Of a stretch of 64,000 bases of DNA, positions 980-31,000 are shown in pieces. A program made the position numbers and the translations under genes. Positions within the stretch are counted from its first letter, which is position 1, and each line of letters starts with the position of its first letter. The stretch is from Asterochloris sp. CNOR1 (taxonomy: Eukaryota; Chlorophyta; Trebouxiophyceae; Trebouxiales; Trebouxiaceae), in assembly GCA_963969365.1 (NCBI GenBank), contig OZ017761.1, positions 1,674,001-1,738,000 of the forward strand. Direction: 5' to 3'. The notes below the pieces were generated by a model. It saw only the letters and a program-made list of their open reading frames with translations. It did not search any database and was not told the origin of the DNA.

Positions 980-3900
980 TCAGTCCTCTTGAAGCATGCT
1001 GGACCAATGATTGACAGTGTGAGGGAGTGGACCATAGAGTTGACCTTTCAGTGCTTCATGAGTGCAGGTTGTGGCCCAACACTCTGTGGTTGCTTTCTGG
1101 TAGCAGGTGTGGATGCGCCAGCTTCCAAGCGCTTTTGCTGGCGCTGCTGCTGTTGAGCCTGAATGGTTGCCATGGATCCTAGACGCCCTGCACATCTCCA
1201 TCTGCAAAACAGCCAAGCACCTTAAAGCAAGGACAACATGTAGGCTGGCTGAGGCACAGTTGCAAGATGTGTGAGCGCATGTCCAGGAGGTCAGCACGTG
1301 CACAGCGCAGCGGCCCAAGCAAGCAGTAGTTGTGGGTTGACCTGGCTGCTGGAGCATGTTCATCAGTGCTCATGCCACACTGTTAAACATGCTCCAGCAG
1401 CCAGGTCAACATGTAGCTCTTCACCCTGTCTGCTTGCTGCTGGATGTAGCTTCAGTTGAGATGCGCCCTAAGCCTGTCCAGGTTCAGCAGTGCCAGGCAG
1501 GGGCAGCAAGTAACACTGGCAGGCAGGACATGCGCAGCAGCTCAGCCGCCGTGACCACGACCACCTTTGAACTACGCACTTGCCTGCTGGAGATATCGTC
1601 CCTCAGAGTGCGCTCAAACACCCACACATCGTCAACTGGGACTGCCTTGTCTGGGTCCCCTTGTATGAGCTTGCCCCTGGCGTCATATGCTGCAAATGCC
1701 TGCTGGCTGGGGATGCGAGCAGTGAGCTGCACAAAGGCAGTCGTGTCGTCCTGCAGGCATGGGAGCACCTGGCAAGTCAGGCGCTTGGCAGGCATATGAA
1801 GTCCTAGCATGAGCAGCCGCACCGTGGCCACGTGTGCTAGTGTGGAGCTGCACAAGTCATCTGCACACACCAACATGCAGGCTCAATTCAGCAATCATGT
1901 CAGCTCCTGAAACCAGGAGAGTATGCGGGAGCCTGAGCCGCTGATGTGCTGTGACCTTCGCATCACACACGCTCACTCATAGCAGGGCATGACGGTGTAG
2001 AAGGGGTTCAAATTCCAGCACCACAATGAGGCAGCTCTTCCTCTCCAGGATGCACCATGCAGGGCCCTCATCTTGATGCACTTCTGGCAGGATGGACACT
2101 GCCGGAGCAGGGTTCATCATGAGAAACCATCCCAAACCCCATACGAGCACTGTGACATGCTGCCATTTCAAGTGCGTCCACTAAAACAGACACGCACATA
2201 CACACAGTTCTCTCATTCTGAGGCTGCTGAGGGCTGCCCACAGACTCTCGCCAAGAGACTCACTGCACCCATGTGTTCCTGTACATCTCCTGTATCTCTC
2301 TAAACACCGGGCTGTTTCGATCTCCCACCTTGGGGTTCATGCATGCTTGCACCATTCTGTCGTCTCTGAGAGGCGGCCCCTTCCCCACCATCCTGGCTGA
2401 GCCGGGCCCCTCACAGGCTTACCTTGGGGTTCAAAGCAATCACGCGCCCCTGAACCGTCTCCACTTCCCTGACCGCTGGGCCCTTCTTCATGGCCCAGTG
2501 CACCCGAGCCCAGCCCCCCTGCCGGCGCCTCTGGATCTCTGATTTCATTCCAGAGAATACAGCTGGTGTCGCAGCCTGCACAGCCCCAAGGCGTCAGGGA
2601 TGGGACACCCCTGGTGTTGCTGTCTGTGCTAGTCCTGGCATGTTGAGGGACACCCCACACAGCCTTGTGCCGAGGCTGAAAGCTTGTAGCCCAGTTGACA
2701 GCACTGGCCTCACCGATCAGGCAAGGTCCCTCAAAAGCTGTCACCAGTGGAATGTGAGTGTGAACAGCTATCCAGGATCACCCAGCGCAGAAAGAAGCTT
2801 GTACACAGCTCAATGTGGAGCAGCGCACACACACTGGACTACATGACAGCACACATGACAGCCATGCACCACAGAGATGCTGCGGGAAGGAAGATCAGAC
2901 CAGGAAGCCAGTAGCACAGACAGACCCCCTGCAGGCAGGCCGCAATGACCAGGAAGCCTACCTGACGGAGTGCAGAAAGGTCGCCGGCAGCCAGTGCCTG
3001 GCAGGTTTCAATGTAGGTCGCCAAGGCATCCTGCTTGAAGTCCAGCAAGCCCCACTTCTTGCTGGCGTCACTGTTTGACTGCAGTGCAAGCAACCAGATG
3101 GTCTGGGTAATGAAGATCAGGGAAGTGGTGTGTGCTGTCAGCATACACTGACCCCAGCAGGTCAAGGTGCCACCACCCTGTGATGCCACCTGCTGCTGGC
3201 AGGACCTGTCAGTAAGCACACTGAGGCCCGGATGGCAGGCCAGGCAGCAGGTGGCATCAGCATGGTGGGCAGGCAGGCAGAAGGTATGGCAGCAGGCAGG
3301 CAGCAGCAGATGGCAGCAGCAGGCAGCATGGCAAGTGGAGCAAGCTGCAGCTCAAGCTGGCAAAGTCTGACTGTGCTTGCATGAATCTGTGCCTCGCTCG
3401 CAGATGTGCAGTGAGGGCAATTCTGTGGAGCAGTGGATGCAGATTTTGGGACTGGGAATCAATGTGCGCAACAAAACGTCTTCAGGCGCTGCTGGTACGG
3501 CCACAACATCAGTCCTGAGTGCGGTCCTCTTGTTTCAATTCCGGCAGTCTTGCATACCAGATCTAGGCAGCTTGTGCATGTCTGCAGGTCCCCTTTCAGG
3601 CGCGGTCGCCACTTGTGCAGAGTGCAGCCCATTTTGGCCAGCCTTTGTGATGCCATGGTCTCAAGCAAGTCTACTCTGACGCACATGCAGTATGCCTCCA
3701 GCTCAGCGATCCGACTTGGTAGCCCCTTGAGAGCTGCTCAATATTCTGGGGTCTGTGGCAGGACAACTTGTTGCACAAAGGAACGCTCCAGGTTGACGCA
3801 CTGGCAGTACCTAAAACAATTATGAGGATACAACTGTGAATCTGGGCAGGCCGCACCTTCAAGCGCTGCCGGCATTTGTGCAGCGTGTAGACTGACTTGA

Positions 3901-4634
3901 AGTTACTCAAAAAACGGTCCTTCCGCTCTGCCCACCCTGCCCAGGTGAACCAGTCTTTCAGAGGCTGGCGCGGTCGTCGGCCCCTGCAAATGTGAGCAGT
4001 CTTCTCAGCTGCCTGCTCTGGCAAACAACTGGGTGCATCTCTCTCGACGGCTGCTCTTTACATGCACACACACCTGGGAGCTCATGAGTGCATGCCAGGC
4101 CAACTGAACAAGATCCTGAACCCTCACAGCTGCCTGCAGCTGCACATTCTCAGGCTAACATCTGCTGGGCCCTGCACAACTGAGCACCTCGTAAACTTGC
4201 CAAATGCAACATGCATGGGCTGCCTGAGTTGCTCTCAGCCCACAAAAAAATTCATGCATGCAAGATACCTACTTGTATGGCTCCACGATGACATTGACGC
4301 TGGACATGGACTGCTGCTGGAAGGCCCCCTTGCGGGCCATCATGGGTGTGTTTATGTTGGCTGTGTGGCCGCCCTGCGTTATACGCAGGGGGTTCTGCTT
4401 TGTTGGTTCTGGCTTCTCTGTAGCCTTGGCAGGGGCTGAGCGCTTGGCAGGCTTCTGTGCGAGCATCCGCTGGGAGAGGGCAGCTTTTGCTGGCTGGGCT
4501 GCATCAGAGGCAGAGGCAGCAAAGGACCTGCAGATCAGGATGCGAGACGGCCTCAGCAACAGCTCAACCCAACGATGTGCAGGAGGGACCATCAGATGGA
4601 GCATGCAATGGCTGAGTGGATGCAAAGCCAGCAA
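980..4634 (-). CDS. MRPL45: Mitochondrial large-ribosomal-subunit protein mL45 (Tim44-like domain)
   Basis: This gene has about six exons and encodes roughly 370 aa. Exon 1 (4634-4273) starts with a basic, Ser/Ala-rich mitochondrial-type presequence containing CRSFAASAS. Its end, VIVEPYK, resembles the N-terminal motif of plant Tim44-related proteins. Exon 2 (3983-3857) holds DWFTWAGWAERKDRF and KSVYTLHKCR. Exon 3 (3078-2962) holds DALATYIETCQALAAGD. Exon 4 (2575-2423) holds MKSEIQRRR, GGWARVHW and QGRVIALNPK. Exon 5 (1750 to about 1575) has the Tim44/mL45 core FAAYDARGKL and VDDVWVFERTLR. Phases close from exon 1 to exon 5. A last exon near 1130-980 carries GSWRIHT, matching the end of the mL45 family, but the exon 5 donor and exon 6 acceptor are unresolved. 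A downstream Met at the MVPPAHRW motif is an alternative start. The known role of mL45 is a structural protein at the mitoribosome exit-tunnel/membrane side. It is divergent from UVR8. Confidence 0.82.
1336..1410. repeat. Perfect 25-bp inverted repeat with 25-nt loop (hairpin)
   Basis: Arms 1336-1360 and 1386-1410 are perfect reverse complements over 25 bases, separated by a 25-base spacer. The hairpin lies in the last intron of mL45, between the Tim44-core exon and the C-terminal exon. It could be a small foldback element, a structured intron or a small-RNA precursor. Nothing in the sequence decides between these. Confidence 0.85.
3224..3360. repeat. GCAGGCA-type simple-sequence stretch in an mL45 intron
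   Basis: This purine-rich low-complexity tract of GGCAGGCAG, GGCAGCAG and ATGGCAGCAG units lies in mL45 intron 2. It is a degenerate short tandem repeat. It opens long frames but encodes only Gln/Ala-rich noise. Confidence 0.6.
3588..3692 (-). other. Degenerate partial copy of mL45 exon 2 inside the following intron
   Basis: Read on the - strand, this segment ends ...LHKWRPRLK then G. This resembles the end of the genuine exon 2 at 3857, ...LHKCRQRLK, including the nucleotide run CTGCACAA and CGCCTGAAA against CGCTTGAAG. The genuine donor (gtgcgg) is replaced by ggggac, so it is not a usable exon. Homology with exon 3 directly after exon 2, and phase 0 on both sides, show the copy is skipped. 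Confidence 0.5.
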
Positions 4635-5546
4635 GGGACCTCCGGCCTACAAGAGAGGCACAGGTAGTACAAAAGCCTGCTGGCCATCTTGCCATTGCAG
4701 CTGCAGATCACCACAGGGGCAGACGCATCAAAAGACCCGCAGCAAGGGCGCATCCTGGCTGGGTGACGCCTGATGCACATCGAAGAAGCAGTAATGCTGC
4801 TTTACAGGCAGAGGACCTGCCGTGAAGCGCAGGTGTCAGTGAGGACGCCAGTTGCATCTCAGGCAGCTGTAGCAAAGGGCCTGAGGCAGAGTTAGTAAAC
4901 GTATGACTGCAGGCATGAGGTGGCCGCAGACAACCAGAAGCACTGGGCGTCTTGCTGCATGCCCTCCAGGGCTGTTTATTAGCTTCTCTCTCAACCCACG
5001 CAGCATGCTCAACTGACAGAGTTGCTGCTGATCTGCATTGCATGTAGTCCCCGTGTTCACACTATAGGTGTCTGCTGGCGTGCTTGCATACCTATAGACA
5101 GGCAGGGATGATGTTGCCAGCTGAGGCCAGCGCTGAGCCTGAAAAGGTTGCGCAGCAGCCTGGCCGGGGTTCCCATGATCCCAGGTGCGCACTATCTCCC
5201 TGTCTGACTGCCAAGTAGACAGCGACTGAAGCCTGATCTGTGGAGCAAGCAGGGATGCTTGTATTGGCACCTGAGGCTGGGAGACGCTGCATGTGCATAC
5301 CTGGCATGCTCCTGCAAGCTGGATCTGCTGCATGTGAGAGAGCTGTTGTACCAGGTCACATGGCCTGCGCAGCAGGTGATCGAGGCCTCTACAGCCGTGC
5401 CACATAGCCATCTTGGCTCCTGCAGGCGTGGGCGTGATGCAACCTTGCGCTTTTCCGGTAGAAAGAAGGACATCTTTGGCAGCTACAACAAGACTTGTCT
5501 TCGTAGTCTGTGCTGCAACATGCTAAGCAGGTGGCCTGCACGATAG
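4635..5546. promoter_or_regulatory. Divergent intergenic region between mL45 and UVR8
   Basis: This 0.9-kb interval separates the start codons of two head-to-head genes, so it must hold both promoters and 5' leaders. I see no convincing TATA box or conserved element, and no gene of its own. Confidence 0.45.
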
Positions 5547-8500
5547 ATGTCGACCCAGGAGGGAGCTTCCAGACAGGATCCGTGTGCAGACTCCCAACAA
5601 CCTGAAACGGAGTTTAGAGTGCTCAGCACCAGCTGTGGCAGCTCACACACCCTTGCCCTCATCAGTGAGCAACGTCCTGGCTGCCTTGCCTACGCATGCT
5701 TGCGCATCTGCATGCTAGGCCAACATTGGTCACTAAACTTGTCAGGGGGCCCTTGCTTGGGCCTGTTCCTGCCAAGTATGCAGCGCATACATATGGGCGC
5801 ACATCTGCTCCAGCTGTGGTATGCTGAATGGGTGCAGGCGCAGATCTCGTTGTTTCCTGGGGCAGAGGAGAGGATGGACAACTAGGCCATGGCGATGCAG
5901 AGGACCGTGCCAAGCCACAGGAGGTGCAGGCGCTGCGCAACAAGGGCATAAGCAGCGTCCACTGCGGAGCAGAGTACTCTGTTGCCGTCTGCAGACGGGA
6001 GAAGCAGGTCTACAGTTGGGGCTGGTAAGTTGCACCGTGGCACAGCATCGGCTGAGCTGCACATGCTGCTGCTTGTTCCGGCTGCACGCCGTGTCTGGAT
6101 TTGCCTTGATCTGCAGGGTATTGGTGTTGTGGCCTGCGTGCAGAGGTTGCTTTTGAAATCCTCCAATCAGATCTGTTGGTTGGGGCAAGGTTTCAAGCTA
6201 GCTCATGCCACGGCGGCCGAAGGCTGTATAGATGTGCAGGAGGGGGGTGCACCCTACTTGGTGTCTCAAGCATCTACTTCCAGTTGGCATCAAAGGAAAG
6301 AGAGAATGACTGCAGCTCATGCTTCGCATTCATTGTGACCAAGGAAATGCATTCACTGTGGCAGGCCTGTGTCTCTCTGCCAATTGCGCATGCAGACAAG
6401 CAGGGCTACCTGCTTCTACAGCAGAGTGGCACTGACGGCGTGTGCTGGCACTAATGGCAGTGAAGAGGCCCGTGTACCTCAGCAGCACGCACAGCCCTGT
6501 GTGCAGGGGTGATTTCGGGCGCCTGGGCCACGGCGACTGCAGCGATGTGTTCCTTCCGCAGCCCATCAAGGCCATCTCAGGAATTGAGATAGTGGAGGTG
6601 GCCTGCGGGGACACCCACACGGTAGCCATCAGCGCTGAGGGGCGCCTGTACAGCTTTGGCCGCAACCAAAATGGGCAGCTAGGGCTGGGGACCAGCCATG
6701 ACGCCCTGTCCCCATCTCTCATAGAGGCGCTTAAGGTAATCTGGCAGGCACCACAGTCTGTACAATCTGTGAAATGGCTGCAGCTTGGGCTGAGCAGTCG
6801 TTGCTTCTACTGCTGATGATGCAACTCTTGCAGGTAGCAGTGAAGCTGTTCGTGTGAGGCCATCCTCTGAATTGTGGCAAGCTTGCTGAGTATGCAGGCA
6901 CCTCGCACAGGCTCAAGCAGGTGTCCTGCACATGGTGCTACATGGGTCACATGCATTGCTCTGGTGGCAATTACATGTTACCTGTTGGCGTTGCTTGAAG
7001 CTGGCCTGTAAGGCGTCTCCTGCAGGTAGAGACGTGCAGCTGCTTTGCGCCGCTTCTGACTGATGCCTGACAAGCACTGGGCCGGGGCGATCGCAGGCCA
7101 TCAAGTCACAGCTTAGTTGCCACAAGATCTAGTGCACAGTCTGGATTCCATATCTGCTGCAGGGCTCAGTTGTTGATTTTGCTGTGCAGGATCAGCGCGT
7201 GATCAGTGTAGCCTGTGGCGCAGAGCATTCTGTGGCCTCAGTTGAGAGCGGCGAGGTGAGGCTGGTGTGCTGAAACTCTTTCTGCAGTTGCAGTCACTTC
7301 CTGCAGAGGATGCGGTGGACAATTCATGGCAGCGTACACTCAAGTGCTATTTTGTCTGTCAAGCAGATGCCGCCAGTGAGCAGCATAAATGCTGTTGTTG
7401 TGGCCTGACATGGCCTGGTCAAGCTGCATTGCCCATGAGAGCTGGGTTGTCTGCATTTGCTGAACCTTGCTTGCAGGTCTACGCCTGGGGCTGGGGTCGT
7501 TATGGCAACCTAGGCGATGGTGACAGATCAGACAGGCAAGGGCACACTGATTTCTGTTGCATGTCCAAGTGTGCCTTTGTTGTTCTAGTGCAGCTTGCCA
7601 GGACATTAGCACAGCCAGCAGTGTGCCTTCTTGCCAGGTGATAGCGGCACCCAGCTTTCAGATCTGGTGTGGCTTCCAGCATCACTGCCCCTGTGGGGGT
7701 TGCAGCAGCTCCCAACACAATTGCTGCCTTGGCCATGCTTACCAGGCTCACTGCAGTCCCTTTCTGCAGGCAGCTGGCCAGCCGGGCGGACTTACGTATG
7801 CACTTGCCTTGTTAGTGTGCTAGCACGTTACCAAGGGACAGATCAAATTTGTATGTCTTTGCCTGACAGATGGGGGCCTTGCTTTGTTGGGCAGCTGCTC
7901 AGGGTGCGTGTTGGCAGTGCTCACTCTTCAAGCTCCTCGATCTGTAGAAATTGGTCCAGTCAGGGAGGGAACGGGGTAATGCTTGAGATCCAGAATGGCC
8001 CAGCTCACCGCTTTGTCTTCACCCGTTCTTTGCTGCTTCTTCTGCAGGTATCTGCCTAGCAAGGTGGAGGGCATTCAGGGCCAGAAGATGCACATTGTAT
8101 CCTGTGGCTGGCGTCACAGTGCCTGTGTCAATGTCCAAGGGGAGGTCTACACCTTTGGCTGGAGCAAGTATGGCCAGCTGGGGCATGGTGACTTTGAGTG
8201 AGTTGGCGTGAACAGAGCCCTGCAGCATGGGTTGCATAATTAGAAGTGGTTGCAAGCAGGTGCCAATACAAGCACAGTGGGGCCCAGCCAGCTGGTGGGG
8301 TAGACCAACTCACGATGGGTCGGAGCGCTGATATGGGTTGGAGTGCAGGCAGTGAACTGCAGTGCACCTGCTTTTGGGCTTGTGAGCAGCTAGCTGGTAT
8401 GAGGTGACTTGGACTGAGTTGAAGTACTCACACATGCAGCTGTCTCGTCAGGGTCGAGAGGTGCTGACTGAAGCATGTCAATCCAGCTTGAGTTGAGTGC

Positions 8501-10619
8501 TTGCGCTCGCTGATTGTGCTACGTCTGTCGGCATGCAGCTGGGCACCGTCACAGGGCTTCTTGGTGGCCAGCTGGGGCTTGATGACTTGCAAGTTGTGGC
8601 ACAGCATGTGCTGATCCCTGCAAAGGCTGCAGAATACCCTGTACTGCATCTGCAGCTTGCTGCAGATGTGCCACCTTTGGCAGTGCATAAGCAGCCACTG
8701 TCAGCCACTCTGTGACTTTAGCTCCAGCTGACAGACCTGTGGCTGTGCCCACGCCAAGATAGCCTCGTGCCTGCCTGCTGCTCAAGTCACTTGGGTGCCA
8801 AACGCCTCAGCTTGTCTGATGCCTGCAGGACCTTCCGACTCAGACTTGCTGAGGTCAGCAAATGTAGGCGTCTCCTGCCCGGCGTTCAGAGGCACGCGAT
8901 ACGTGATATGTCCAGTGCCTGCAGGGACCACTTGATGCCCAGAGAGCTGGAATGCAGGTACTGCCAATTGCCTTGCACCCCAAGATGCCCACCACCCACA
9001 TGCCTGCTGCCTGCAGGGACCACTTGACGCCCAAAAAAATCGAGGCCCTGGACGGCAAACAGATCACCATGATGGGTGGTGGCTGGCGCCATGCAGTTGC
9101 AGCGGACGACCAGGGGCGCATGTATGCCTGGGGCTGGAACAAGGTCAGTGCAGCCAGACAGGCTGCTGAGATTTCCAGGGCAGTTGTGCCCCATGATGTG
9201 ACCCCAGATCTGTCTGGGCCAAGAGCAAGGTCAGATCTTGGACTGGGTGGCCTTGCTGACATGCTGCAGCTGCTGAAGATCAGGGACGCATGTCTGCTGA
9301 GGACTGGGTGCTGTGCCAAAGCTGATGCATCCATGCCTGTGCCTGAAGCAAAGACCGTGCTGCCTGGGCTGCCCTTGTCCCCTTAGCTGTCCAGGTCTCT
9401 CTGTCTGCCTGGCTTCTGCTCATCCTGGCTTGCCGAAACGTGCTTTGTAGCTGAACAGAAGGATGCCTCCTCACCTGGGTCTCTGCCTGATAGCATAGCA
9501 GGTAGGTGCCTCTATCCTGTGACCACCTGCTGTGTTGACAGGCAAGCATCTGCCCATCAACAGCTCATTGTACATTTCAGAGCGCAACCCTGATTGCTGT
9601 GCTCTGACTTGACGACGTCCTGCACCCTGCAGCTGGGAGGGCTTTTCATGTCAGACTCTTCCTGCCAGATACTTGTTCTTTGCGTGACTATGGCCTGACA
9701 AGTTGCGCATTGCCCGCCCTGCAGTTTGGACAGCTGGGCCTGGGGCGGACGGTGGAGTACGTCAATGCCCCCCGCCAGATCGCCACCCTCCAAAATGACA
9801 GAGTCAAGGAGCTGTCTTGCGGGTGGCGCCACACAGTCTGCCTCACAGAAGCTGGCCTGTACTATGCGTGGGGCCGAGGGGTGAATGGCCAGCTGGGCCA
9901 TGGCGACAATGCTGACATGTGAGCATGTCATTGAACTGTGGAAAGACCCACATGCATGTGGAGGCAATCAGTGTCACAGAAGATTCAGAGACTGGGCAAT
10001 CCAGACCAGGCAGCACTGTGCTATGCGTAGATGATCTGAGCACCAAGGCACCATGCATGCAGCGGGCAGCTCTGTACCTGCCCTTGCTTTCCCAACCTGA
10101 CATGGTGGCTGAGTCTAGCTGGCACTTAGGTTTAACTCCGCCGCCACTAGAGCACCTAGCAGAAGTGTGCTCCTACAGCTGCCTGACACCTCACTGAGCA
10201 GCCAGGCCTGGCCTGACTCAGGCCGCACGCGCGCTGCACAGCCCCTTGCCGAACATTCGTCTTTGCAATTTGAGCCTCTGGCGTTCTGTCGTGCGCAGGT
10301 GGGTTCCCCGGCTAGTCAAGCCGCTCAGCATTGGCACTGTGAGCCTTGCGAGCTTTGCTGAGAGCAGCATCCCGCAGTCAAGTTATGTCTCACCTGCCGA
10401 CCGCTATGCGGTAGTGCCAGACCAGAACCCAGCCGACCAAAGAAATGGAGACATGGGCATGGTGAGAATGCAGGATTTGTTGACCTCTGGACAAGCAGCC
10501 ACGCAAGACACTGAGCACAGCGTGCGTCAAGCTAGCCCCTGTCTGTGCAGGTGCCGGAGATCTCTATCAGGAGCACCCATCTTCTCGAATCCAAGCGCGC
10601 CAAAATAACACAGCAGTAG
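5547..10619 (+). CDS. UVR8: UVR8 UV-B photoreceptor (RCC1-repeat beta-propeller)
   Basis: Ten exons close in phase to 453 aa, against about 440 in Arabidopsis UVR8: 5547-5664, 5838-6024, 6507-6735, 7190-7255, 7477-7535, 8048-8197, 9017-9143, 9725-9918, 10299-10461 and 10551-10619. The product is a seven-bladed RCC1 propeller with the UVR8 signatures [24 protein letters not shown] and [13 protein letters not shown]. All three Trp-bearing GWRH motifs of the UV-B-sensing pyramid are present, at about W241, W293 and W346. The C-terminal region has [11 protein letters not shown] followed by a Val-Pro pair (about 432-433) and a basic tail, as in the segment that binds COP1. In the known family, UV-B monomerises the dimer, which then binds COP1 and alters transcription. 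Intron 5 has a GC donor (gcaagg). The start Met gives a short N-terminus similar to plant UVR8. Confidence 0.95.
8560..8955 (+). other. Two partial exon-edge copies within UVR8 intron 6
   Basis: Intron 6 (8198-9016) contains a copy of the end of exon 6 around 8566-8590 (GGCCAGCTGGGGC, then ATGACTT), matching the exon end at 8173-8195. It also has a copy of the exon 7 start at 8919-8950 with its own cctgcag acceptor followed by GGACCACTTGA, matching 9010-9030. The decoy acceptor keeps the right phase but runs out of homology after DHLMP. Using it would insert 31 non-homologous residues, so exon 7 is placed at 9017. Confidence 0.6.
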
Positions 10620-11159
10620 CAGATTGTCCTGCTGGCCTGGCCCTGGGCACTGCTAAGTCTACGCTGATGCTTGCAAGGCGAACGTGCGATCGTGCAAAGC
10701 TTGTAAATTTCATGTTGATGAGCATGACTTTTACTGCCATATTCATTGTCCTTCCCACAGTTTTTATGTATGCCACCGCCAGCTGAAGCTCAAGACTTGA
10801 ATCCATCAGTGCAAACACATATGAAGCAATCGTAGGGCCCCAGCTGTGGCGACGAAAAATCTAATTGTCATTGCCCCCTCGATGCAAGTGGGGCACTAGG
10901 CTGCTGGTGTCACAGCAAGCCTGACCAGCGCTGCAACATCAGCGCCTGGCAGCCACCAGGACAGGGCATATCTCAGGACGCGAGGATCTGCAAAGAGGAC
11001 AGCCCTGCATTACTGGTCCAAAGGCGCTGCGTCAGGCGGATCACCAGAGAGGCAAAAGATGCCGCTCAGATGGAGCGCCTAAACGCCTCTGAGGGCCCAG
11101 CCTCAACATCTCAGACCTCTTGAAGCAACTGGGGCCCTGGAGGAGCCTATCAAGGAGCC
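10620..11159. other. Intergenic region between UVR8 and MED15
   Basis: This 540-base stretch contains the UVR8 3' flank (T-rich around 10690-10760) and the MED15 leader. No gene or conserved element is recognised. Confidence 0.45.
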
Positions 11160-14100
11160 ATGGCCCAGCAGATTGTCCCTCAACCCGTCAGTGATGAGGA
11201 CCGGCTGCAGGTCAAGCAGCACATGTGAGTTGCTGTGCATGCGCTGCATACCCGTACGCTGCTGTCAGGGGCCCCCTGCAGGCAGCTCAGGCCTTCCATG
11301 TCCCATGCTAGCATTGTAGGTTCCAGCTTGGACCCTGGCCACACCCCCACATGTCTGGCTGTGGTAGCTCCCCTGCACCTGAGTGGCAGCCTGCTGCTCC
11401 CTCACACGTGCCAGGCGCTCCAGGTCGACCCCAACTGACAGCAGGCAGAGTTATTGGTCTGGGCGGGCCATGGATGTGTGCCTGCCTGAAGTGTGCCTGT
11501 TGTGGGTTGCAGGCTGCATGGCATGCTGACAGCTGGAGGCAATCGGACCCAACAGGAGCTCGAGAAGACAGTGACTGAGCTGGAGCAGGGAGCCTACACC
11601 AAAGTTGCAGATGATAAGGTGTGGAGTCTGCAATGTCATTTGCTGCCGTAGTCATGCTCAAGGTACCACTTCTGCAGATGCACCACCGGTAAGCAGGTGA
11701 CACTGAACAGGTGAAATCATGTGTCATGGCTCTTTGGGGGCTTAAAAGTTGATTCCTTACTGATTCATGTAAGTGGGCCTGCTGAGACTCGGCGACCTAG
11801 GAGTCTGCAACCTGAGACAGCAGGAGCACAGGTAAGAGAGCCATCCCGCCTCTGCCTGCCATCCCACCGAGCGCCTTGCACTGCTGCGTGCACACTTCGC
11901 CCAGGCCCGGGGCTCCCCTCATCAGGGCAGCAGTGCTGCAGCATGACATGCAGACATGCGCTCATGAAGAGGGCCTTGCTGTACCCCAGAGGGCTTGGTA
12001 GCAGGCCTGTGATGGGGCGAGCAGGGTTGAGGAGGCCACCTGGCACTGACAGTGCAGCTGAGAAGCGGCCAAGTGTCCCCAGCAGAGCTGAGAAAGTGCC
12101 ATCTATGCACCCTCAGCACTGCTGTCTTGCTGCAGGTCAAGTACTTCAAGCGCTTGGAGAACTCTGTAACCAAGTACCGGAAGCTGGTGGACAAGGAGAG
12201 AGCCGGTATGTGTCAATGGTCACACTCCACGCATCACTATCATGACTGAAGTGGACTTGAAGGCATTTCAATGCTCGTCTGTGCACTGCTTACAGTGGCA
12301 CAGCAGCATCCTGCTCCAGGCCAGCCACATGCTGACAAAGCTGATGCGTGCCACACAATGGGACGCCAAAACTCAATCTACCTGCAAGCACAGGCCGCAG
12401 CCCAGCCTCAGGCATAGGCGTGGCGCACATGGCTTTGCTGATGATGAGTTCTTGACACAAGTATGCATGCTGCCTGCAGACTTGCAGGCTGCAGCGCCTG
12501 CCCAGGCAGCTCAGCCACAGGCCCAGGCGCAGGCCTCAGCTGCACCAGTTGGGGCTGGGCGCCCGCCCACGCCTGGCACTCAGCCAGGCATGTGGCCTGG
12601 CGCGCAGCCAGCAGCAGTGGCTGGTTTCCCGGGCACCGCAGCTCACCAGCTCAGCTCTCAGAGCATGACAGCCCACCAGCCAAGCTCGCCAGCCCACCTG
12701 CGTATGCCGCAGGGCATGCCAGTCCAGCAGTCGAGCTCCCAGGCCCAGCAGACTGCTTACATGCAGCAGCCCATAGGGCACCTGCACCAGCCGCAGATGC
12801 GCCAGCAGCAGGCACAGGGTGGGGGGCACCAGGGGCCCATGCAGGGGCTGCTGTACGAGGGTATGCTGCTACCTGGACACCAAGAGGTGGGCCACTCCCT
12901 GAATGAGGGAGGCAACAGCCAGAGGTGCATGGGCTGCCTGTTATACAGCGTGTTTGTTGTCTTTCTGCAGGGGCACTGCTGCAGCAGCAGGGCAGGCCTG
13001 ACTGGTTTGCCTGTCTGTGAGCACCTATCGCATCCAAGTGATGGCATGATGACCGCTGGCCTGCATTCCACATGCTTGTTGTGTTTTTCTAATGTAGTTT
13101 CCAGTATGCCCCATCAGACTGCCACCCAGGCCGCAGGTATTCACAAAGGCCTCACAACTGCTGTCAGCTCCCTCGCTGTGCGACAAAGTTGCTTGGGCTA
13201 GTTGCCAACTTCAGAAACTATTGAAGTGCATGTGTCGCCAGCTTCAGGGGATTTGGTGTTCGTCCGTCAGCAATTGTAGACACTGTGCTCATGCTATCTG
13301 CGAAGTGAAAGCTCCAATAGCCAACCCTTATACGCAGGTGTCGACAGTTTCAGGGGATGCAGAGTTCGCAGACATGGCCGCGGCTTTCTTCGACAGTAGC
13401 CCACAGCCCGCGCAGCAGGCACAGCAGCAACCTGCTGCAGCCTGGCCGCCCCCGCAGCAGGCACAGCAGCAGCATCAGGCCCTGCTCTACCAGCAGCAGC
13501 AGAGGCATCTCCAGCAGCAACAGCAGATGGGCATGTCTGGCGGGCCACACCCGCAGGGTCAGGCGGGAGTGTATGCTCAGGCTGGGCAGCAGTATTCAAC
13601 TGCCAGGAGTGCGTCTCAGCAGCAGGTGGGGCAACCCCTAAGGGCGCCCCTAGTGACCCAGCAGCAGCATTACCACCCAGGGCAGGCGGCTGGGCAGTAC
13701 CCAGGGCAGGCTTCAGGCCAGTCGGCTGGACAGTACCCAGGGCAGGTTGCCGGCCACCCTGCTGGGCAGTATCCAGGGCAGGCTGCAGGCCAACATGCAG
13801 TGACAGCAGGCTCACAGCAGCAGCGCCCTGGGCACTACCCAGGGCAGCAGCAACAGCATCCAGGGCAGCAGCAGCTGCATCCTGGGCAGCCTGCAGGGCA
13901 GGCTGCCGGGCAGGGCCACCCTGGGCAGCAGCATGCTGCAGGCCAAGCTGCTGCTACTCAGGAGACGCTGGCCCTGTTCCAGAGCACCTATGCCCTGTTC
14001 CAACAGAATGTGGACCTGGTCAAGGCTGCTCTGACAGAGTATCAGGTGGCCATCAGCAAAGGGCCCAGCGTGGCCAGCGCTGTGGGGGAGCATCAGCTGG

Positions 14101-17100: not shown

Positions 17101-19694
17101 GAAGCTCCTTGTGCCTGCCATGTGCTGCGCTTGCCTGTCTAGCCGGAGCCAGGCAGCTGGTGCGCACCCAGCAGGTCCGCCTGCCCAGCACTTGTCGTTG
17201 TCTTCATATGCTGGCAAATTTCGAATTGCCTCCCCACAGCCACAGACTACTCTGCATCAAAGATGTACACCACTCTTCATGGCTGCAGGGATGGGCTCAG
17301 CAGCCTCGCTCCCTGTGTCGTTGTCTGTCCCCAACCTGGTGTTGTCCAAGGTCACCAGCCAAGCTGTGATGGAGGGCAGGGAGGCGCCAGAGTCCCCTGC
17401 CAGCACACAGTCACCAGCACTTGGTGAGAGACGCTGTTTGTACCATCCTGGGCACAGGCACAGGCCCTGTCTCACCCATGACACCAGTCCTAGCGCCCTT
17501 TTGGGCGCTCAGCATGCTGGGAGCCATCAGTGCGTCTGCATCACCCCTGGCGGACCCAAAGGGCTCTCTATGTCTGTCAGGCCATTGCCAGGCCTACGGG
17601 CATGCACAGGTGGCTGCTCAGGACAGCATCTTCACGCCCCGCACAGCCGCGGGAAAGCACTTACGGTCTGGGGCATGCTGCTCCTTGAGTACCCCAAGCT
17701 CCAGCTCAGAGTTGCCAGCAAGCTCCTGGCATGGTCTGTTTGCCATGGCCCAGTCCCTCTGCCAGCAGAAACGAAATTCTAGTACATCTGCAGCCCCCTG
17801 GTTGCTGTTGCTAGGGAGTCACACCTTGCTGCAGGGCAACTGCAAGTCTGCACTCTTGTTGTGCTGCCAGGCTTCTGAAGGCCCTGTGTCAAATCTTACT
17901 CCCACTGCAGCCTCCACACTGACGCCGCTGCTGGCCCATGTTGCCCGAATCCACTGCTGAGTAAGCACAGGGGTGCCACCCAGCCTTGTAATTCGCTTTC
18001 AAGCACGCCACTGATGCCACCCTGTTGTGCCTGCAGCCTCCCGGCCGCTGTCCCTGCTGGGAAAGCGCAAGTCGGCCACCCAGCTCGTGAACCAGGAGCG
18101 GGTGCTGCAGAAGCGCCAGAGGCTGGCCCACGTGGAGGAGGCAGTCAACACGGTGAACACATTGTGGCCGCTGTCCTGCAGCCAGCGCAATGGGATTTTG
18201 GGTGTTTTTAAGTGCAGCAAGCTTGTGTGGAGGGTGGCAGCGCACGTGTTGAGCGCACTTCGTGGGTCTTGGGACATGTTTGGGCCACATGAAGCCTGTC
18301 AAAACTGGACTTGGCCTGTGCTTGCTTGGCTGCCTGTGGGGGCTGCCCACTTAGTGGAGGCAGCCGGTAATGTGAGCATCAACTGAGATAGCTCAAGTCT
18401 GCAGCCAGTCATGCTCATAGACCAGAAGGCAGCTCTGCGTGGCATATGACTGCACTGCATGCTTGCTGCATCATCACCTCAGCAGCATGGTTACATCCAG
18501 CGCAGAGAGAGGAGGCATCCTTCTGAAAGTGCCTGCTCAGCACTTGCTGCTTTGGGTGGTTCAATTGGTGCACTGCTGCCTCATGTCTTTGTGCTCTGGC
18601 CCTTTGGTGTGCCATTGCTCAGCCCACCCTGTCCAGCCGCAATGTTGCCACGCTGCATCTCTTGTGGTCCACGCTACAGTGCCTGCAGCTTAGCTACACA
18701 TGGCTGATTGCTGTTGATGCTGGGCAACACCTTGGGCGCAGCTGCCTCGCTCACATAGCCCCTACCGTCCCCTGCAGTTGGCTGATGCCATGGCCCCTGT
18801 AGCCCAGCTGCACACGGCGGACTGCTCAGCCTTCGAGGACGCCATGCTGGTGTCCTGCACCGTGGGCAGAAACGCAGCGCTGCCAGAGCCCAACAGCCCT
18901 GACGGCACCCCCCAGTGGCGCACCCTGTCCCTGAGGGTTTCTGAGCGCTACCCTGCTGAGTCCCCGGTGGCGCTGTTCAACTGTCCATCTGATGGGCTGC
19001 CTGTTCCTCCACAGGTTAGCACCAGCAGGCCCAGCTGCTTCATGTCTGGCATGCTGGGTCGTGGGGCAGGCACTGTCGTGCGGGTGGTCGGTAGGTAAGG
19101 CAGGGCAGGGCATGCCCTGACACTGCCGCTCTGATGGGCAGCCCATGTTTACTCGAATGGGCACCAGCAGGCCTCTTCGGCCTGCAGCCTGATGTGCAAG
19201 CAGCAAATCATGGTGGAACTGCTGTCTGCAGCAGAGCAGGCCTCAAGCAGTCTTGTGAAGCCATGTTGAAGCTCGTTGGCGGGCAGGGGTTGCTGAAGCA
19301 AGACCAGCTTCCCCCTTCCTGTGACCCCTGCAAGGATGTGAGGCAGCCGTTGTACTTCACTGCACCGGTGGTGAGTGCATGTGACGTTGGGCTTGAGTCT
19401 GGTTAAACACCTTGGTCTCCCTCTGCCTCCCTTCTGCGTAGCCTCTCGTCCTGATTCTCTTCTGGCCTGCAGGCAGAGGCGGCGCGCAGCGTGTTTGAGG
19501 CCTCGGTGTCAATGCTGCCCCAGCCGCTGAACCTGAAGACCATGATGGAGTCCTGGCACAAGGCTATTGCCTCGGTGGACAAGGCTTACAGCTTACAGCC
19601 AGGTGCTCCAGCACCGTTGGCAGGCCCGTCGGGATCCCTGGCCTATGGGGGCCCATTGCTGGCTAATTCTCCCGCCGTGCGTGGCCTGCAATGA
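11160..19694 (+). CDS. MED15: Mediator tail subunit MED15 (KIX-like, Gln-rich)
   Basis: About 13-14 exons encode roughly 1,130-1,150 aa. Exons are 11160-11224, 11513-11618, 12136-12205, 12480 to about 12886, 13338-14099, 14752-14844, 15176-15578, 15771-15856, 16096-16798, 17289-17423, 18037-18152, 18778-19014, a possible 36-nt exon 19335-19370, and 19473-19694. Phases close, with the exon 4 donor least certain. Residues 1-80 resemble a KIX fold: QVKQHMLHGML, then ELEQGAYTKVADD, then KYFKRLENSVTKYRKLV, as in plant MED15. The middle is Q-rich with PGQ repeats. The C-terminus matches the MED15 family end: LRVSERYPAESPVALF, then SMLPQPLNLKTMMESWHKAI. A helical basic segment, GKRKSATQLVNQERVLQKRQR, precedes it. 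In the family, KIX receives activator signals and the C-terminus docks into the Mediator tail. Confidence 0.85.
13670..13945 (+). repeat. AGQYPGQ-type tandem peptide repeat in MED15
   Basis: This coding stretch of MED15 exon 5 repeats a unit close to AGQYPGQ (DNA CAGTACCCAGGGCAGG with variants) about five times, then grades into PGQQQ/HPGQ and AGQ units. It is preceded by CAG-rich poly-Gln runs at about 13410-13530. It is low complexity, probably disordered, and likely to vary in length between strains. Confidence 0.8.
15090..15126 (+). other. Partial copy of MED15 exon 7 start inside intron 6
   Basis: The run LKQAQSALK (TTGAAGCAGGCGCAGTCAGC) repeats the start of exon 7, LKQAQSAFSK, at 15184-15213, about 90 bases upstream of it. 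A caccag acceptor-like site precedes it. Its frame reads into non-homologous sequence, so the exon is placed at 15176, where phase 0 from exon 6 is kept. Confidence 0.55.
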
Positions 19695-20665
19695 TTGCAG
19701 GCGGCTGCCCGCCACCCCAGCAGGCGCTGCAGAGTCTGCTGGCTGGCTGGTTCTGCGGCGAGCTCGGCCTGTAGTTGCGGCAGCCCTGGCAGACATGCAT
19801 CTGGCACGCTGGGCTGCACGTATTTTTTGGGGCCTGCTGCAACCTCTGCCCGCAACTATGGCAGCTGCAGCGCACGGCAGTTCTGAGCTCAGGCCCTGTC
19901 AGTGCAGCAGCTGCCAGCAGCCCTCAAATTCTTTTGCATGTGGCGCGCATCTCAGAGTAATTGCATATCACTGCCACCATGCCGCCACAGCAAAACCCTC
20001 TGTGCAAAGGTCGCGGCCAGTAGTGTTGGCATGACACCAGTAGAATAACATGCGTGCCTGCACTTACTCAATTTTCTTGAGATGCTGCCCCAACAAACAC
20101 TTCTTGATGCGGAACAAGCCCTCACCGCCGGGAGTGCTGTCACATCCAGCTGCAGCACTGAATGTCTCACCCTCCAAATGTTGCCTCCCGCCCTTGAGTT
20201 GCAAGTGTGTGTGATTTTGATGAAGCAGGATGAGAACATGCAGAGTCCTTTTCAGACCCTGCAAAAAGAGCAGGACACCTCTTTTGCATTTGAAATGTTT
20301 CAAGCCACCCCCCAGCTGAATGTGGCACCCCTTCCGCACTTGGGGCTTTGTGACCATCACTGTTTGAATTTTGAATTTTCGGTACCGAAAGTCAAACCTC
20401 CCAGCTGCCTCCCCTGCCGGCGACATCAAGCAGTCTCGATGTTGTTGGCCGCATGAACATTTACAGCCTGCCACCAGGTAAGGGGATGGGCCCCATCCAA
20501 CCATGTTGGTTGCGGTTCACTGCCTCGGGCACTGGGGGGACAGGCAGCTGTATGTGAGCCTGGTGTCGACGCTGTCGCAGGTGCCGAGTGATCGAGGCGC
20601 TGTTTTTGTGGCGCAATCCCCCCTGCTGTGCAACTGGGGGCAGAGGACTGCTGTGAGGCGACATC
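19695..20665. other. Intergenic region between MED15 and the FAS1 gene
   Basis: This is about 970 bases with no recognisable gene. It holds the MED15 3' flank, an AT-richer stretch at 20210-20400 and a 14-bp palindrome (TTTCGGTACCGAAA, 20377-20390) beside a repeated TTTGAATTT. The right part must contain the promoter of the FAS1 gene. Confidence 0.45.
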
Positions 20666-22860: not shown

Positions 22861-23210
22861 CTGAGGTACTGATCCTCATAGTGCAGCACCATGCTGCTGC
22901 TCTGTGACTTCACAAGGTCAGTGAAACAACAGGTGATAACTGCAACAGACACCATGCTTGTATCAGAACAAAGCATGACTTATCAATTTGATGAACACCA
23001 GTAGCCCACCAGTCCTTGGTTACACTGTACTCCCCAGCTGATAAGGTTCATTTCATACATGTCCTATCTTCTTTACCCTCAACACATTTCTCTGCTCTTT
23101 GTCTTGTTGTGCTCAAAGCGCAAAATCAGTTGTCACTGAGGGCTTGTAAACAGCTCACATCCTCTTTAGAAATGAGGCACCTAGTGCTCACTGACGCTAC
23201 TTGAGCAACT
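22861..23210. other. Convergent 3' flanks of FAS1 and the membrane-protein gene
   Basis: This 350-base interval is AT-richer than its surroundings and lies between two facing stop codons. No gene is seen. It probably contains the two polyadenylation regions. Confidence 0.5.
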
Positions 23211-26141: not shown

Positions 26142-28018
26142 CTGCAGGCCCAGCAGAAGCACAGTGGGCATTGGGACGGCGCACATGACAGCTGGCGTGC
26201 AGGTCAGATTCCCAGGTTCGGCAAGTGGAGGCCCAAGGCCCGTAGTGTGCCGGACCTGTAGCTCAGCCTGCATGTGCTCCGTGGCACTCTATGTAGAGAT
26301 CAGGCACTACTTACAGACTTGGTAACACATGCGCAGCCACAAGCTGCGGCCGGGGGCAGTGCAGAGGCATCACGCACTGCAAGCATCCTGTGCATCTGGG
26401 CACTTCCTGTGCTGAACTCAGCCGTGCACATCCCAAGTGTGCCACTGCAGCAAGGCCTCACGTTGGTACTTCTCTGACTTGAGAGCATTCTTGGTGCCCC
26501 GCTCCTGATTGATGTTGCCTGCACGGACGACCAGCGCACCCTGCAATTGGCAATGCTGCATCTGAAGCCAGCAATTTTTGAAGGTGCCACTTCTTTGCTG
26601 GAATGGGTACAATGGTGATCACTGCTGCCCATGGGTGGGCTACTTGCCTGGGCCTTTGGGCTGCGCATGCTAGGGGTCACATAACATGGCCGCCACGCAG
26701 GTGGTTGGCTTGCTGTTCGGTGGCCAGCACAAGTGCAGTCCTTGCAAATGCTGCTTTTCAGCAGCGCAGGTGGGTGTAGCTAACTGCCAAAGGGCAGTCA
26801 GCAACACAAGCCGGATGATGCTCACCCTGCTAGCAGCCTTGTGTGTCCTGCACGAGGCCCTCAAGGTACAAGGCAGCTGCCTGTTGGCCTGCTGCCCAAC
26901 AATGGAAACTGCAGCAGCATGTCAGATCCAGTCCTAATCTAGCACAGAGTCCCATTCACAGACCAAGGCACTTGCGCTTAAAGCTTGTCAAGAGCAAAAC
27001 AGGCAGAACAGAGATGTGGGTCCTGATGAATAGGCACCGTGCCTGACCTGCTGATCTGCTTATGCTGGCCTGCATTGTGTCGATTGGTTTGCTTGATGGC
27101 AAGATCGAAAGCAGGCTCGACTGGGCTTGCAGTGGTATGAACGTGGTGTGAATTTTGGGCACGTCGACGTGGCCTATTCAGCACCTGATAAAAATTGTGA
27201 GACTTGTTTTCTCACAAAGACAAAACTTGCACTTGTTTCGTCCATCTGCAGGGTCATCCCAGTAGTATGCTTTGGGCCAGAGCATGCTGAAGCTACTTCT
27301 GATGGTCAAAGCCAGCATGTTTACAGGGAGCCAGCTGGTCTGCTCCTGAGCAAATACACTCGCTACCAAGGAATCAAGCATCAAAGCAAACACTTCAGAG
27401 ACCATAGACCTCCACAGATCAAGCTGCAGCATCAAATGAAATGTCACCAGCTGCAGACGGGTACACTCATTCAGTATGCTGGAAGTTCAAATGCTAGACT
27501 GGGAGGTGGCAGTCTCGGTCAATTCATTCTGATCAGACAGTCCAGACAAGCCTCATGTGTGGCCTGAGCAGTGTAGGGGGGCAGGGCATCTCACAGCCTG
27601 TCTGGTGGCTGAAGTGTCAGGAATCATCTGCGTCTGACATTCAGCAGGAGCTCCTGCGGGTGCTTGGGAATCGAGACTGCCCACAGTACTGCGCCCAGCT
27701 GCAGCACATGGGGACGTCCAACAACTAGCTGGGTGTGCAGCCATCAAACCTGGTACAGTTCTGCTGGTGGTCAGTCGCTTCTGAAAAAGCCTGAATCAAA
27801 AAAGGGTACCAGCGCCCATATATCTTGATGTGGGCGCTGCTGCTGCCACTGCTGGCTCAGTGTGCTCCCAGCAATGCCTTTTTGCGTGCCATACAGCCGA
27901 GGCATTGTCATCTGCTCACAGGGGGCTGAGGGTCCGGGTCTGATGCGGGCTGGGCGTGGCTGAGGGCCTTCACTGTGCCCAGCCCAGCCTGGGCTGACGC
28001 TCCAGAGGAGTCAGTCAG
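26142..28018. other. Region holding an unresolved 5' end and otherwise no recognised gene
   Basis: The first exon or exons of the - strand membrane-protein gene must lie in about 26150-26900. Several Ser/Arg-rich frames there could be a leader, but none gives a clean phase-1 donor. From about 27000 to 28018 the sequence is AT-richer, with only short unsupported frames. It forms the 3' flank of the WD40 gene. Confidence 0.4.
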
Positions 28019-31000
28019 TCAAGCAACCGTCCAGACTGCCACCTCCCCATAGCTGTCGCCGGAGACCAGGGTGTCGTGCTTCCCGGCGGCCAGGACTCTG
28101 ACAGGGTAGTGGTGGCAGAAGAGTGCACTGCTGTCGGGGGCCTCCAGCAGAGCCAGCTCCCAGCGCCTGACCAGCTGCAGTGCATGCCAGAACATACAGT
28201 CAGCACAAACCCTAAACTTTGACGGCAGCATGGACAGTTCCAAGCATGCAAAGCAGCTGGCGCCTCACCAAACTGCAGCGCAGCAGAGAGCACACCCAGC
28301 ACTGTGAAGCAGCTGCTTGCAGCATGCTGGGGTGACGGCACCACCAGCAGGCCCTGCTGCAGCAGCTCAGCTGCCCTGCAGAATGAGGGGTGCAGCCTGC
28401 AAGCACAGGATACTCAACAAACCACCTTGTCAGCCACCTGAGCAACCCCGGCTCCAGTGTGCACCAGTGGGGGCCACAGATGCAGCAGGTGCTCTCTGCG
28501 GATGCTCACCTTCTCATTCCTGCCAGTCCAGAGCGACCTGAAGAGCCTCCATACTCACGACCATCACCTCAAAAGCAGGCAGTGAACAGCAGATGCGATC
28601 TGAGGGTGCTCACCTTGTCATCGCCACCTGTGTAGAGCTTCCTGTCGGGGCCCACTGCTGCGCAGTTGATGCGCTGCCCCTCGTGTGCATTGTTCTTTTC
28701 CCCGACCAGCTCCATGGTGTTGGCGTCCCACATCTTGATGCTACCGTCGTAGCTGGTGCTGCAGGCAGACAGGCAAAGGCTTGAGTGCTGCACTTGGCCA
28801 TGCAGTCAGGTGCATCCTTGCAAAGCTCTAGACTGCCATGCGCAGGGATGCAGGCAGTGGCAGGTGCTCGAGTGACGCTCAAACAGGTGCTGGAGTGCTG
28901 GGTGCCCTGCAACAGGGACGCAAACACCTGCAGCTGCAGGCCAGCCAGCAGGCGCTGCAGTGGCAAGTCGTACTTCCTACTGCTGTGTGCAAAGCATTGC
29001 AGTCCAGAAGAAGTTCAGGCCAGCTACATGCCAGTGGCCCCTCACAGTAAGGTCTGTGGCTGGGGCAGCACGGCCCAAGGAGAGCAGCAACCTCTATGGC
29101 TGGAGAAGCAGCGTGGAGCACTGCCCCAGTGGCTGACCTGTAGAGGAAGCCCTTGTGCCACAGCACAGAGGTGACGCGGTCGCTGTGGGCCTTGTCGCGC
29201 CCGGCCGCCTCCCGCAGCTCGCCCTTCTTGTCAACGGTCCATGACCTGCGGCCAGAACGCCTGAGTTGATGACAGCCCCCTTGGGCTCAGTAGGCCCCTG
29301 CAGATTCTGAAGGAGCCTGCACTGATCGCCTGTCTGGCATGCCCTGTACACAGTGGCCCGAGGTGTGCATGCAGAAGTCTTGCCGACAACAGCCAAGTTC
29401 ACAGGATACAGGCTCAACCCCCAGCAGTTATCCTTGCTAAGACACATGTGGAGTCCAGGTCCAGCCAGCAGGGGCCATCGCAGGGCTCTTTGCAAGCCAT
29501 GTGAGCAACCCCGCTTGGGGTTCCAAGGGGGCGGCCACTTTGCAGATGATGCCCAGGGTGTCTTATGACTTGCAAGCAGGGTGCCAGAGACAAACTTTGG
29601 GAGCAAATGCTGCAGCTTTTGGCATATTACCTGATGCTGCACATGGAAGGTGCAGAAAAACACCGTATCGTGCCGCAGGCACAGCCCAGGGGACCCAGGG
29701 TGCTTGTGGCCTGCTCTGTAGGCCAAGGGTGACTCACTTGATGCTGCCTCTGGATGTGCAGGCAAAGAGCCGGTTGTTGCCTGTGCACAGGGCCAGGATG
29801 TCGCCGGTGAACAACTTGATGTCGCGCACATGCCTGGGGACTGCCCTGCTCATGTCCCACTGCTTTATGTAGTTACATCCGCAGCTGCAAGCAGAGGATA
29901 GTGGGTCGTGCAACCTTGGCTCTGATGCATCAACAGGGCACAGACAGCGCCCAAGGCGACAGCAGTGTGCGCAGGGGACCAATCAGCTTGAGACAGCAGG
30001 TACCCTGCATCTGGCTCACACAGGCTGGGCCAGGTGTCATAAAATGAGCCTGCAACCTGTCTCAAGTGCGTGGGCAGCACTCAGATGGGCACAGTGTAGC
30101 TCTGCTAACCAGTTGGTGGCCTACCTGACAAGCCACGTCCCGCTGGTGGTCAAGGACCTGACCTGGTTCACACTGGAGGCCTGTGTGGCTCACCTGAACA
30201 GCCACTTTCCGCTGGTGGCCAGGGACCTGACCCAGCCAGTGTGGCTGTTGAGCACCACCTTGGAGATCATCTCCTTGTCCGGGGGCTCCCAGGAGAGCAC
30301 AGACTTCCCGTGGTTGCCACAGAACACCTGCAGTCGTTGAAGGCGCTGGGTCAAGAGGGGGGCCGCTGCCGCCTCCCTGAGGCGGACAATCTGGTGTGCT
30401 CAAGACTGCAGCTGCACACAAAGCGCCTGCCTGTGCGAGTGTAGCCGCAGCTCAGCAGTGGGGTGTCGAAGGCAGCACGGTGGGTCACGCAATGCAACAC
30501 ATGCGAGGGACCCTGACTGTGTCTGCCTGCAGCCGGTGGGGCCCCTACCAGATCATCTGTCGGGAACATTCCCGGCTGCTGCACACAGCAAGTAGCCCAG
30601 GGCTGCAGCAAGATCGCCTTCCCATGGCAGCTGACCTGGTTGCAATCCCCCAAGCTGGTTCTGTCACCCACAAAGCCGTGGATGGCACTGTTCTCCTGCC
30701 TCCACCAAGCACGAGACAGCAGCACGTGCGGGTCTACGACTCAAGCAGCTCACCTGCTTGTGGTTCCCAAGGCTGGTGCTGTCAGCCACCAGGCTGAAGA
30801 TGGGCCCCCCCGCAGGCTTGAGCCGTGCCACCTCTGACATGGGGACAGCCCTGGACTCTGAGAGGTCACAGTCCTGCAGGCAGGGCAGTGGGTACAGGTG
30901 GGGACCACAAGACTTGATGAGTTCTTCTTGGCACACCAACGCCTCCACATCTTGCTGCTCGCCGCAGGTGAGTGGGCAAAGGCAGGCTTGCCACGCGCCA

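Follow-up and report, generated by a model that had tools for sequence, protein, structure and literature searches.

Degenerate direct copies of exon edges in adjoining introns of Asterochloris sp. CNOR1 and their probable origin by short local duplication

The window analyzed here is a stretch of 64,000 nucleotides (nt) of the green alga Asterochloris sp. CNOR1 (contig OZ017761.1; C16:1674001–1738000), whose genome comprises 56.4 Mb in 21 contigs. It has a GC content of 57%, is intron-rich, and carries a UVR8 gene together with mL45-like, MED15-like, putative WD40, and class-3 lipase-like genes. Introns of these genes contain degenerate copies of the edge of a neighboring exon, and these spare exon edges are the subject of this report. 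The original prediction listed six cases in four genes, and pairwise alignments show that all six are indeed local copies in direct orientation at exon edges, with the MED15 case the weakest. The copies and the exons concerned are as follows.

3595..3627, minus strand: degenerate copy of the donor-side end of an mL45-like exon, in the adjoining intron
3857..3983, minus strand: mL45-like exon with the copied edge (gene finder)
8048..8197, plus strand: UVR8 exon 6 (protein homology and GTGAGT at 8198)
8389..8421, plus strand: UVR8 exon 6 end with its donor, first copy (CT in place of GT); 33 nt at 0.76 identity to 8173–8205, offset 216
8565..8588, plus strand: second copy of the UVR8 exon 6 end; 22/24 to 8171–8194, offset 394
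8918..8941, plus strand: acceptor and beginning of UVR8 exon 7, copied 5' of the true acceptor; 23/24 to 9010–9033
9017..9143, plus strand: UVR8 exon 7 (gene finder, extended to 9197 in a later run; UVR8 alignment)
9260..9307, plus strand: UVR8 exon 7 end copied into the following intron, newly found; 48 nt at 0.73 identity to 9090–9137, offset 170
9327–9364, plus strand: further weak copy of the UVR8 exon 7 end; 38 nt at 0.74 identity, offset 209
13228..13262, plus strand: copy of a MED15-like exon start or acceptor region; 28/35 to 13334–13368, offset 106
19122..19173, plus strand: exon end and donor copied into the following intron, newly found; 52 nt at 0.69 identity to 18980–19031
28483..28540, minus strand: newly found copy of an exon end and donor, putative WD40 gene; 58 nt at 0.74 identity to 28587–28644
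30116..30163, minus strand: copy of an exon end and donor, putative WD40 gene; 40/48 to 30185–30232, offset 69
30627..30685, minus strand: copy of an exon end and donor, putative WD40 gene; 44/59 to 30745–30803, offset 118
38249..38282, minus strand: exon end copy, class-3 lipase paralogue 1; 34 nt at 0.76 identity, offset 141
47911..47939, minus strand: exon end copy, class-3 lipase paralogue 2; 29 nt at 0.86 identity, offset 143
57257..57308, minus strand: exon end copy, class-3 lipase paralogue 3; 52 nt at 0.73 identity, offset 133

The identity of UVR8 is confirmed by alignment to the Arabidopsis protein (PDB 4d9s, 2e-107), an alignment that also establishes the joins between exons 6 and 7 and between exons 7 and 8. 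The gene finder placed the end of exon 6 at 8187, and the protein alignment and the GTGAGT motif correct it to 8197. The mL45-like copy matches 3858–3890 over a 33-nt ungapped core at 0.79 identity (34/45 with gaps); the encoded protein has a Tim44-like domain according to Pfam, and a phmmer search of it against the PDB gave no match. The MED15 identity received no confirmation from Pfam, run on one piece, and the start of this exon is uncertain, lying at 13363 by the gene finder and at about 13337 by eye. WD40 is an earlier reader’s label for the putative gene that holds the copies between 28483 and 30803. Within it, the match of the copy at 28483–28540 extends beyond the donor on the intron side, and part of the copy at 30627–30685 was called a weak exon by the gene finder.

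The class-3 lipase-like genes form a tandem array at 34400–64000 with about 9.4–9.7 kb per unit. The edge copy occupies an aligned place in all three paralogous introns and, judged from these alignments, appears older than the gene duplications, unless it was spread by conversion. The compared exons of the units are 0.85–1.00 identical (some 0.99–1.00) and the compared introns 0.67 to 0.94, an unevenness that suggests patchy conversion. Every unit also carries a degenerate repeat of about 66–73 bases (39713–39828, 49431–49536, and 58717–59000), with several copies in the third unit.

The comparison was extended to a sample of 314 kb, i.e., the window, 200 kb of contig 1 (C1), and 50 kb of contig 3 (C3:1000001–1050000), taken at arbitrary positions. 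Gene models came from a purpose-written ab initio gene finder trained on the sampled sequences, and junctions were taken only from exons of at least 40 nt with a coding score of at least 8. The gene finder merged neighboring genes and added tiny false exons, which makes its intergenic labels poor. The models are supported by homology for UVR8 and for a sample of other genes. Twenty junction proteins were printed from the 48 matched junctions outside the window, and 10 of them were scanned with Pfam and read by their best stretches. Six have a domain running across the junction (a cyclic-nucleotide-binding protein, a DEAD-box helicase, a 5'-nucleotidase, a Nup93-like protein, an MCM amino-terminal domain, and a Bud32/TP53RK-like kinase), an RNB ribonuclease domain stops at the junction in one more, and the best stretch misses the junction in the remaining three. 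For the Bud32/TP53RK-like kinase, an alignment to PDB 8k20 also runs through the junction.

Probes of up to 60 nt at 720 predicted junctions (735 before targets shorter than 40 nt were dropped) were scored by their best match to the adjoining intron. At a score of at least 16, matches were found at 53 of the 720 junctions, compared with 0 in inverted, 0.4 in non-adjacent, and 0.33 in shuffled introns; at a score of at least 13, the corresponding values were 84 junctions and 14, 8.6, and 7. The 53 matches fall into 31 clusters and 51 introns, with 5/105 junctions from the window, 26/502 from C1, and 22/113 from C3. Recognizable copies are present at about 7–10% of junctions. This alignment of junctions against introns, with shuffled and non-adjacent controls, had been proposed in the original prediction, and the adjoining introns far exceed both; the predicted recurrence across unrelated genes is likewise borne out, on three contigs. 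Chance similarity might be expected in DNA where GCAG and CTGCAG are very common, yet with inverted, non-adjacent, and shuffled controls at 0–0.4 against 53 it is refuted in bulk, and its probability as the general cause is negligible. Individual weak pairs may be due to chance.

The copies lie in the intron next to the copied edge. Probes restricted to exonic edge sequence matched the adjoining intron in 26/720 cases and the intron across the exon in 0/678 at a score of at least 16, and in 60 versus 5 cases at a score of at least 13 (inverted controls, 4 and 3). The median offset is 133 (57 pairs with a score of at least 15), matched blocks measure about 20–100 nt, and the copies mostly lie 60–300 nt apart. 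Mismatch rates at codon positions 1–3 are 0.218, 0.211, and 0.263; because they are nearly flat, the copies do not look coding. The donor GT survives in 14 of 24 copies, a share in line with neutral decay. A duplicated or mutually exclusive coding exon is not supported, in view of this codon profile and of the GT lost in the other 10 donor copies, with AG mostly kept.

The intronic position of the copies and their splice-like sites would also suit introners or transposable elements carrying splice sites. Such dispersed elements should occur as many similar scattered copies, which were not found: only 15 of 189 copies match elsewhere in the 314 kb (the lipase array accounts for 14 of these), and a whole-genome search with two window copies returned, among the matches listed, only the copies themselves and the neighboring exon for one of them (8918–8941). 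The genome search omits common words and gives a lower bound; for 30116–30163 even the exon match was missed, showing limited sensitivity. Elements of this kind are a highly improbable source.

The junction copies are part of a broader surplus of direct repeats at short range. In a masked, ungapped self-comparison of the window and contig 1 (3.5–4% of bases masked beforehand as tandem or low-complexity sequence), direct pairs number 143–186 per 1e8 compared positions at offsets of 30–250 bases, 7–32 at 250–1000 bases, and 0–7 in bands sampled from 1 kb up, while inverted pairs number 0–7 per 1e8 at all offsets, 10 in total up to 2 kb. The masked window holds 34 direct pairs with a score of at least 17 (offsets 30–1000), some of which are protein repeats or reflect the tandem lipase array, versus 1 inverted pair (offsets 30–2000); its far bands, 500 wide and starting at 1000, 1500, 4000, 8000, 20000, and 30000, hold 2, 1, 2, 1, 0, and 0 pairs. 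Masking of 9000–9015 lowered the UVR8 exon 7 match to a score of 16, under the threshold of this comparison. Overlapping pairs were merged, which reduced 111 pairs to 72 clusters (211 to 202 in another set). Exon edges are paired with non-coding sequence in 31 of the 72 clusters (offsets below 500) versus 7.4 by random placement, and non-coding sequence with itself in 22 versus 40.6. Close direct repeats and short tandem-duplication insertions occur in genomes as a local excess in direct orientation, as do the copies here; they are not known to have been described as centered on splice junctions.

Local direct-repeat coverage is 0.003 per base in stretches labeled intergenic by the hidden Markov model (15.5 kb of the 314 kb), 0.06 in introns, and 0.016–0.044 in bases 500–1500 nt from an exon. 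The low intergenic value, from a small sample with weak labels, may mean that the process is tied to transcribed DNA. Around 36169–36600 of the C3 sample, dense local repeats of about 81–84 bases look, on inspection by eye, like coding sequence of a repeat protein that the gene finder overlooked.

Where both copies lie inside one predicted exon, the offset is divisible by three in 12 of 13 pairs (p = 1.7e-5 if the pairs are independent; two places give two pairs each). Copies in non-coding sequence have no such enrichment. The same process thus appears to act on exons as well, leaving just the products that keep the frame, whereas those straddling a junction are free. Tandem structure is evident in some pairs, e.g., one with an offset of 79 and 89 nt matched at 93% (C1 112562) and one with an offset of 110 and 84 nt at 90% plus an extension (C1 124313). 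Gapped homology passes the splice consensus into the intron, with an extension of at least 9, in 44% of 57 pairs, compared with 3% of controls and 57–59% of simulated tandem duplications; copying of exon sequence alone at the mRNA level is disfavored by this result.

As predicted, the copies go with longer introns: copy-bearing introns have a median length of 439 versus 344 expected from length-weighted sampling (P = 0.0014). With the offset subtracted, their median is 278, and that of introns without matches is 253.5. The accompanying suggestion of intron gain is not supported, since the offset equals the intron length in 0 of the 57 listed pairs (read from the list, with targets cut at 500 nt), and classical gain of a new intron was rejected.

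Collectively, the copies are local, direct only, restricted to the adjoining intron, non-coding, undispersed, frame-filtered, associated with longer introns, and, in many pairs, homologous across the junction, and this combination points to short local duplication filtered by selection. We regard it as probable that short direct duplications are sorted by selection in this way and that those straddling a junction silently lengthen introns. Short DNA stretches within genes would duplicate locally in direct orientation. A copy inside an exon would survive almost only if the frame is kept, whereas one within an intron would be silent. The same would hold for a unit that spans exactly one splice site, the mRNA being unchanged: the splice site beside the intact exon would stay in use, and the spare exon edge would be absorbed into the intron, which would lengthen by about the offset. 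From then on the spare edge would decay as non-coding sequence, and the true edge would remain conserved. Both the duplication step, by slippage, unequal exchange, or templated repair, and the choice of splice site are what we infer from the DNA.

Larger internal gene duplications are a source of intron change that does not concern short junction fragments. A full-text literature search, covering titles, the beginnings of abstracts, and few subscription papers, found, among the papers listed, no description of a recurrent junction-centered footprint that lengthens introns. The original statement that such a process was not described is nevertheless too strong, given that tandem genomic duplication, also across a junction, is a known route to new introns; PMC3443670 reviews it, and PMC4974935 gives an example from potato that spans a junction. 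The duplication treated in PMC3443670 is likewise local, involves exon sequence carrying splice sites, and leaves the protein unchanged; it creates a new intron from exon sequence, whereas in the genome sampled here an existing intron is lengthened. The potato RdRp gene provides one recent case of intron–exon tandem duplication, in which the unit similarly spans the intron–exon junction and carries the acceptor (PMC4974935). That event yielded a new intron and added exon sequence, whereas a recurrent degenerate footprint is seen here, with the spare edge apparently spliced out.

Several results weigh against short local duplication sorted by selection as the explanation. The sample covers 0.56% of one genome, as DNA only. 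Junction copies are about four times as frequent in C3 as in C1 (p = 4e-6), i.e., the rate is uneven. Among edge and exon copies in non-coding sequence, 24 of 101 offsets are divisible by three, a slight depletion (p = 0.045). Extensions of at least 13 occur in 18% of pairs versus 47–48% in the simulation, so the intron-side homology is weaker. In many pairs the matched block falls short of the offset, some of these pairs being near-identical with unrelated flanks (31/33 at an offset of 91), and a simple tandem unit of offset length therefore cannot explain all pairs. The sample looks mixed, with tandem and short spaced pairs, and we claim no single molecular mechanism.

To the same side belongs the concentration of copies at the junction, which was measured with sliding 40-nt probes at 658 junctions (introns of 100–1200 nt; fixed offset range of 60–260, score of at least 14, matches per million cells). 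The density is 0.7 at 50–90 nt inside the exon, 11.2 at -30..+10, 10.6 at -20..+20, and 2.5–3.9 in the intron from +30, with non-adjacent controls averaging at most 1 match at any position. Uniform tandem duplication was simulated; events altering the mRNA were discarded, exons were kept under constraint, and introns were left to decay. The ratio of the junction peak to the intron plateau is 3.4, compared with 1.4–1.7 in the simulation, and the inner exon value relative to the plateau is 0.22, compared with 0.67–0.99; capping the exonic part at 50 nt brought the simulated inner exon to 0.02 but flattened the peak to about 1.0. The junction concentration exceeds what the model predicts, and either junctions are prone to duplication or their copies are preferentially kept.

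Duplications starting preferentially at junctions, linked to transcription or splicing or to microhomology at TGCAG and GTGAG, would account for such a peak, which is present in the C1 and C3 samples and for donors and acceptors alike. Under strict scoring (+1/-3, score of at least 15), 14 of 658 junction probes match, followed by 3, 1, 1, and 0 for successive intron probes; two non-overlapping intron probes pooled give 4/1146 (p = 7e-4). The peak is thus sharper at strict identity, where differential preservation should matter least and slower decay of the exon copy would have the opposite effect. The idea that the peak arises wholly from differential preservation of the exonic copy was rejected on this ground, and in the simulation its effect is also too weak. 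By source, the peak-to-plateau ratio in C1 climbs from 2.2 with the loosest scoring to 3.9, 4.4, and 6.7 as scoring tightens, and in C3 it is 6.2, 8.0, 8.4, and 5.3 from loosest to strictest. Because these ratios differ, the pooled value owes much to C3, and the case from C1, the largest sample, rests on the stricter scorings, its loosest ratio being near the simulated range. In the window there are just 5–6 matches; they scatter broadly across the exon edge, and with the strictest scoring the junction itself has none.

Splice-like motifs were also considered. True acceptors match in 27/331 cases versus 31/1063 for intronic YTGCAG (p = 1e-4), and true donors in 22/318 versus 5/366 for intronic GTGAG (p = 2e-4). 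Intronic YTGCAG itself is raised about twofold over random intron (13/924; p = 0.03). An acceptor-like motif accordingly explains part of the acceptor peak, and a donor-like motif little of the donor peak; as the whole cause, such motifs were rejected, pseudo-acceptors remaining below true junctions. In the strict subset with both exons reliable, the counts at a score of at least 16 are small (9/338 at the edge versus 1/338 in the intron), and the peak depends on the home-made gene models and on the simulation settings. Given the partial role of the motif, the few strict matches, and the weight of C3, we consider a junction-linked mutational process a tentative alternative. The stronger statement that junctions are hotspots of short direct duplication into the adjoining intron, and that introns grow by repeatedly budding edge copies, seems rather doubtful. 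As to the splice-junction process named in the original prediction, the centering on the junction stands in C1 and C3, but introns away from the junction and exon interiors (in frame) are affected too.

Copies at junctions might instead be kept preferentially as decoy or alternative splice sites. The acceptor AG is kept in 20 of 23 copies, above the expectation from neutral decay (p = 0.004), which also counts against simple decay of the spare edge, and one edge copy persists in the three lipase paralogues. The AG figure may be a detection bias, acceptor matches being anchored on CTGCAG, and the frequent loss of the donor GT and the small codon-position bias speak against retention, which is an unlikely cause.

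The findings bear on how introns lengthen without transposons. If, in a compact algal genome, about 7–10% of junctions are accompanied by a recognizable spare copy, junction-straddling duplication would be a common and selectively silent form of intron growth, and each spare copy would be a possible source of alternative splice sites. If the junction-centered excess survives better annotation, it would link splicing or transcription mutationally with local duplication. Were junctions truly hotspots, the pattern would reflect a mutational process linked to splicing or transcription and not uniform duplication filtered by selection.

Apart from the exon-edge copies, the window contains a perfect inverted repeat of 25 bp, its arms separated by a 25-nt loop, at 1336–1410 between two predicted genes. 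Among the matches listed by a genome search allowing up to 2 mismatches were just its two arms. A folding energy of -61.1 kcal/mol (z -9.3) is predicted for the 101 nt around it, and the predicted hairpin resembles a microRNA precursor.

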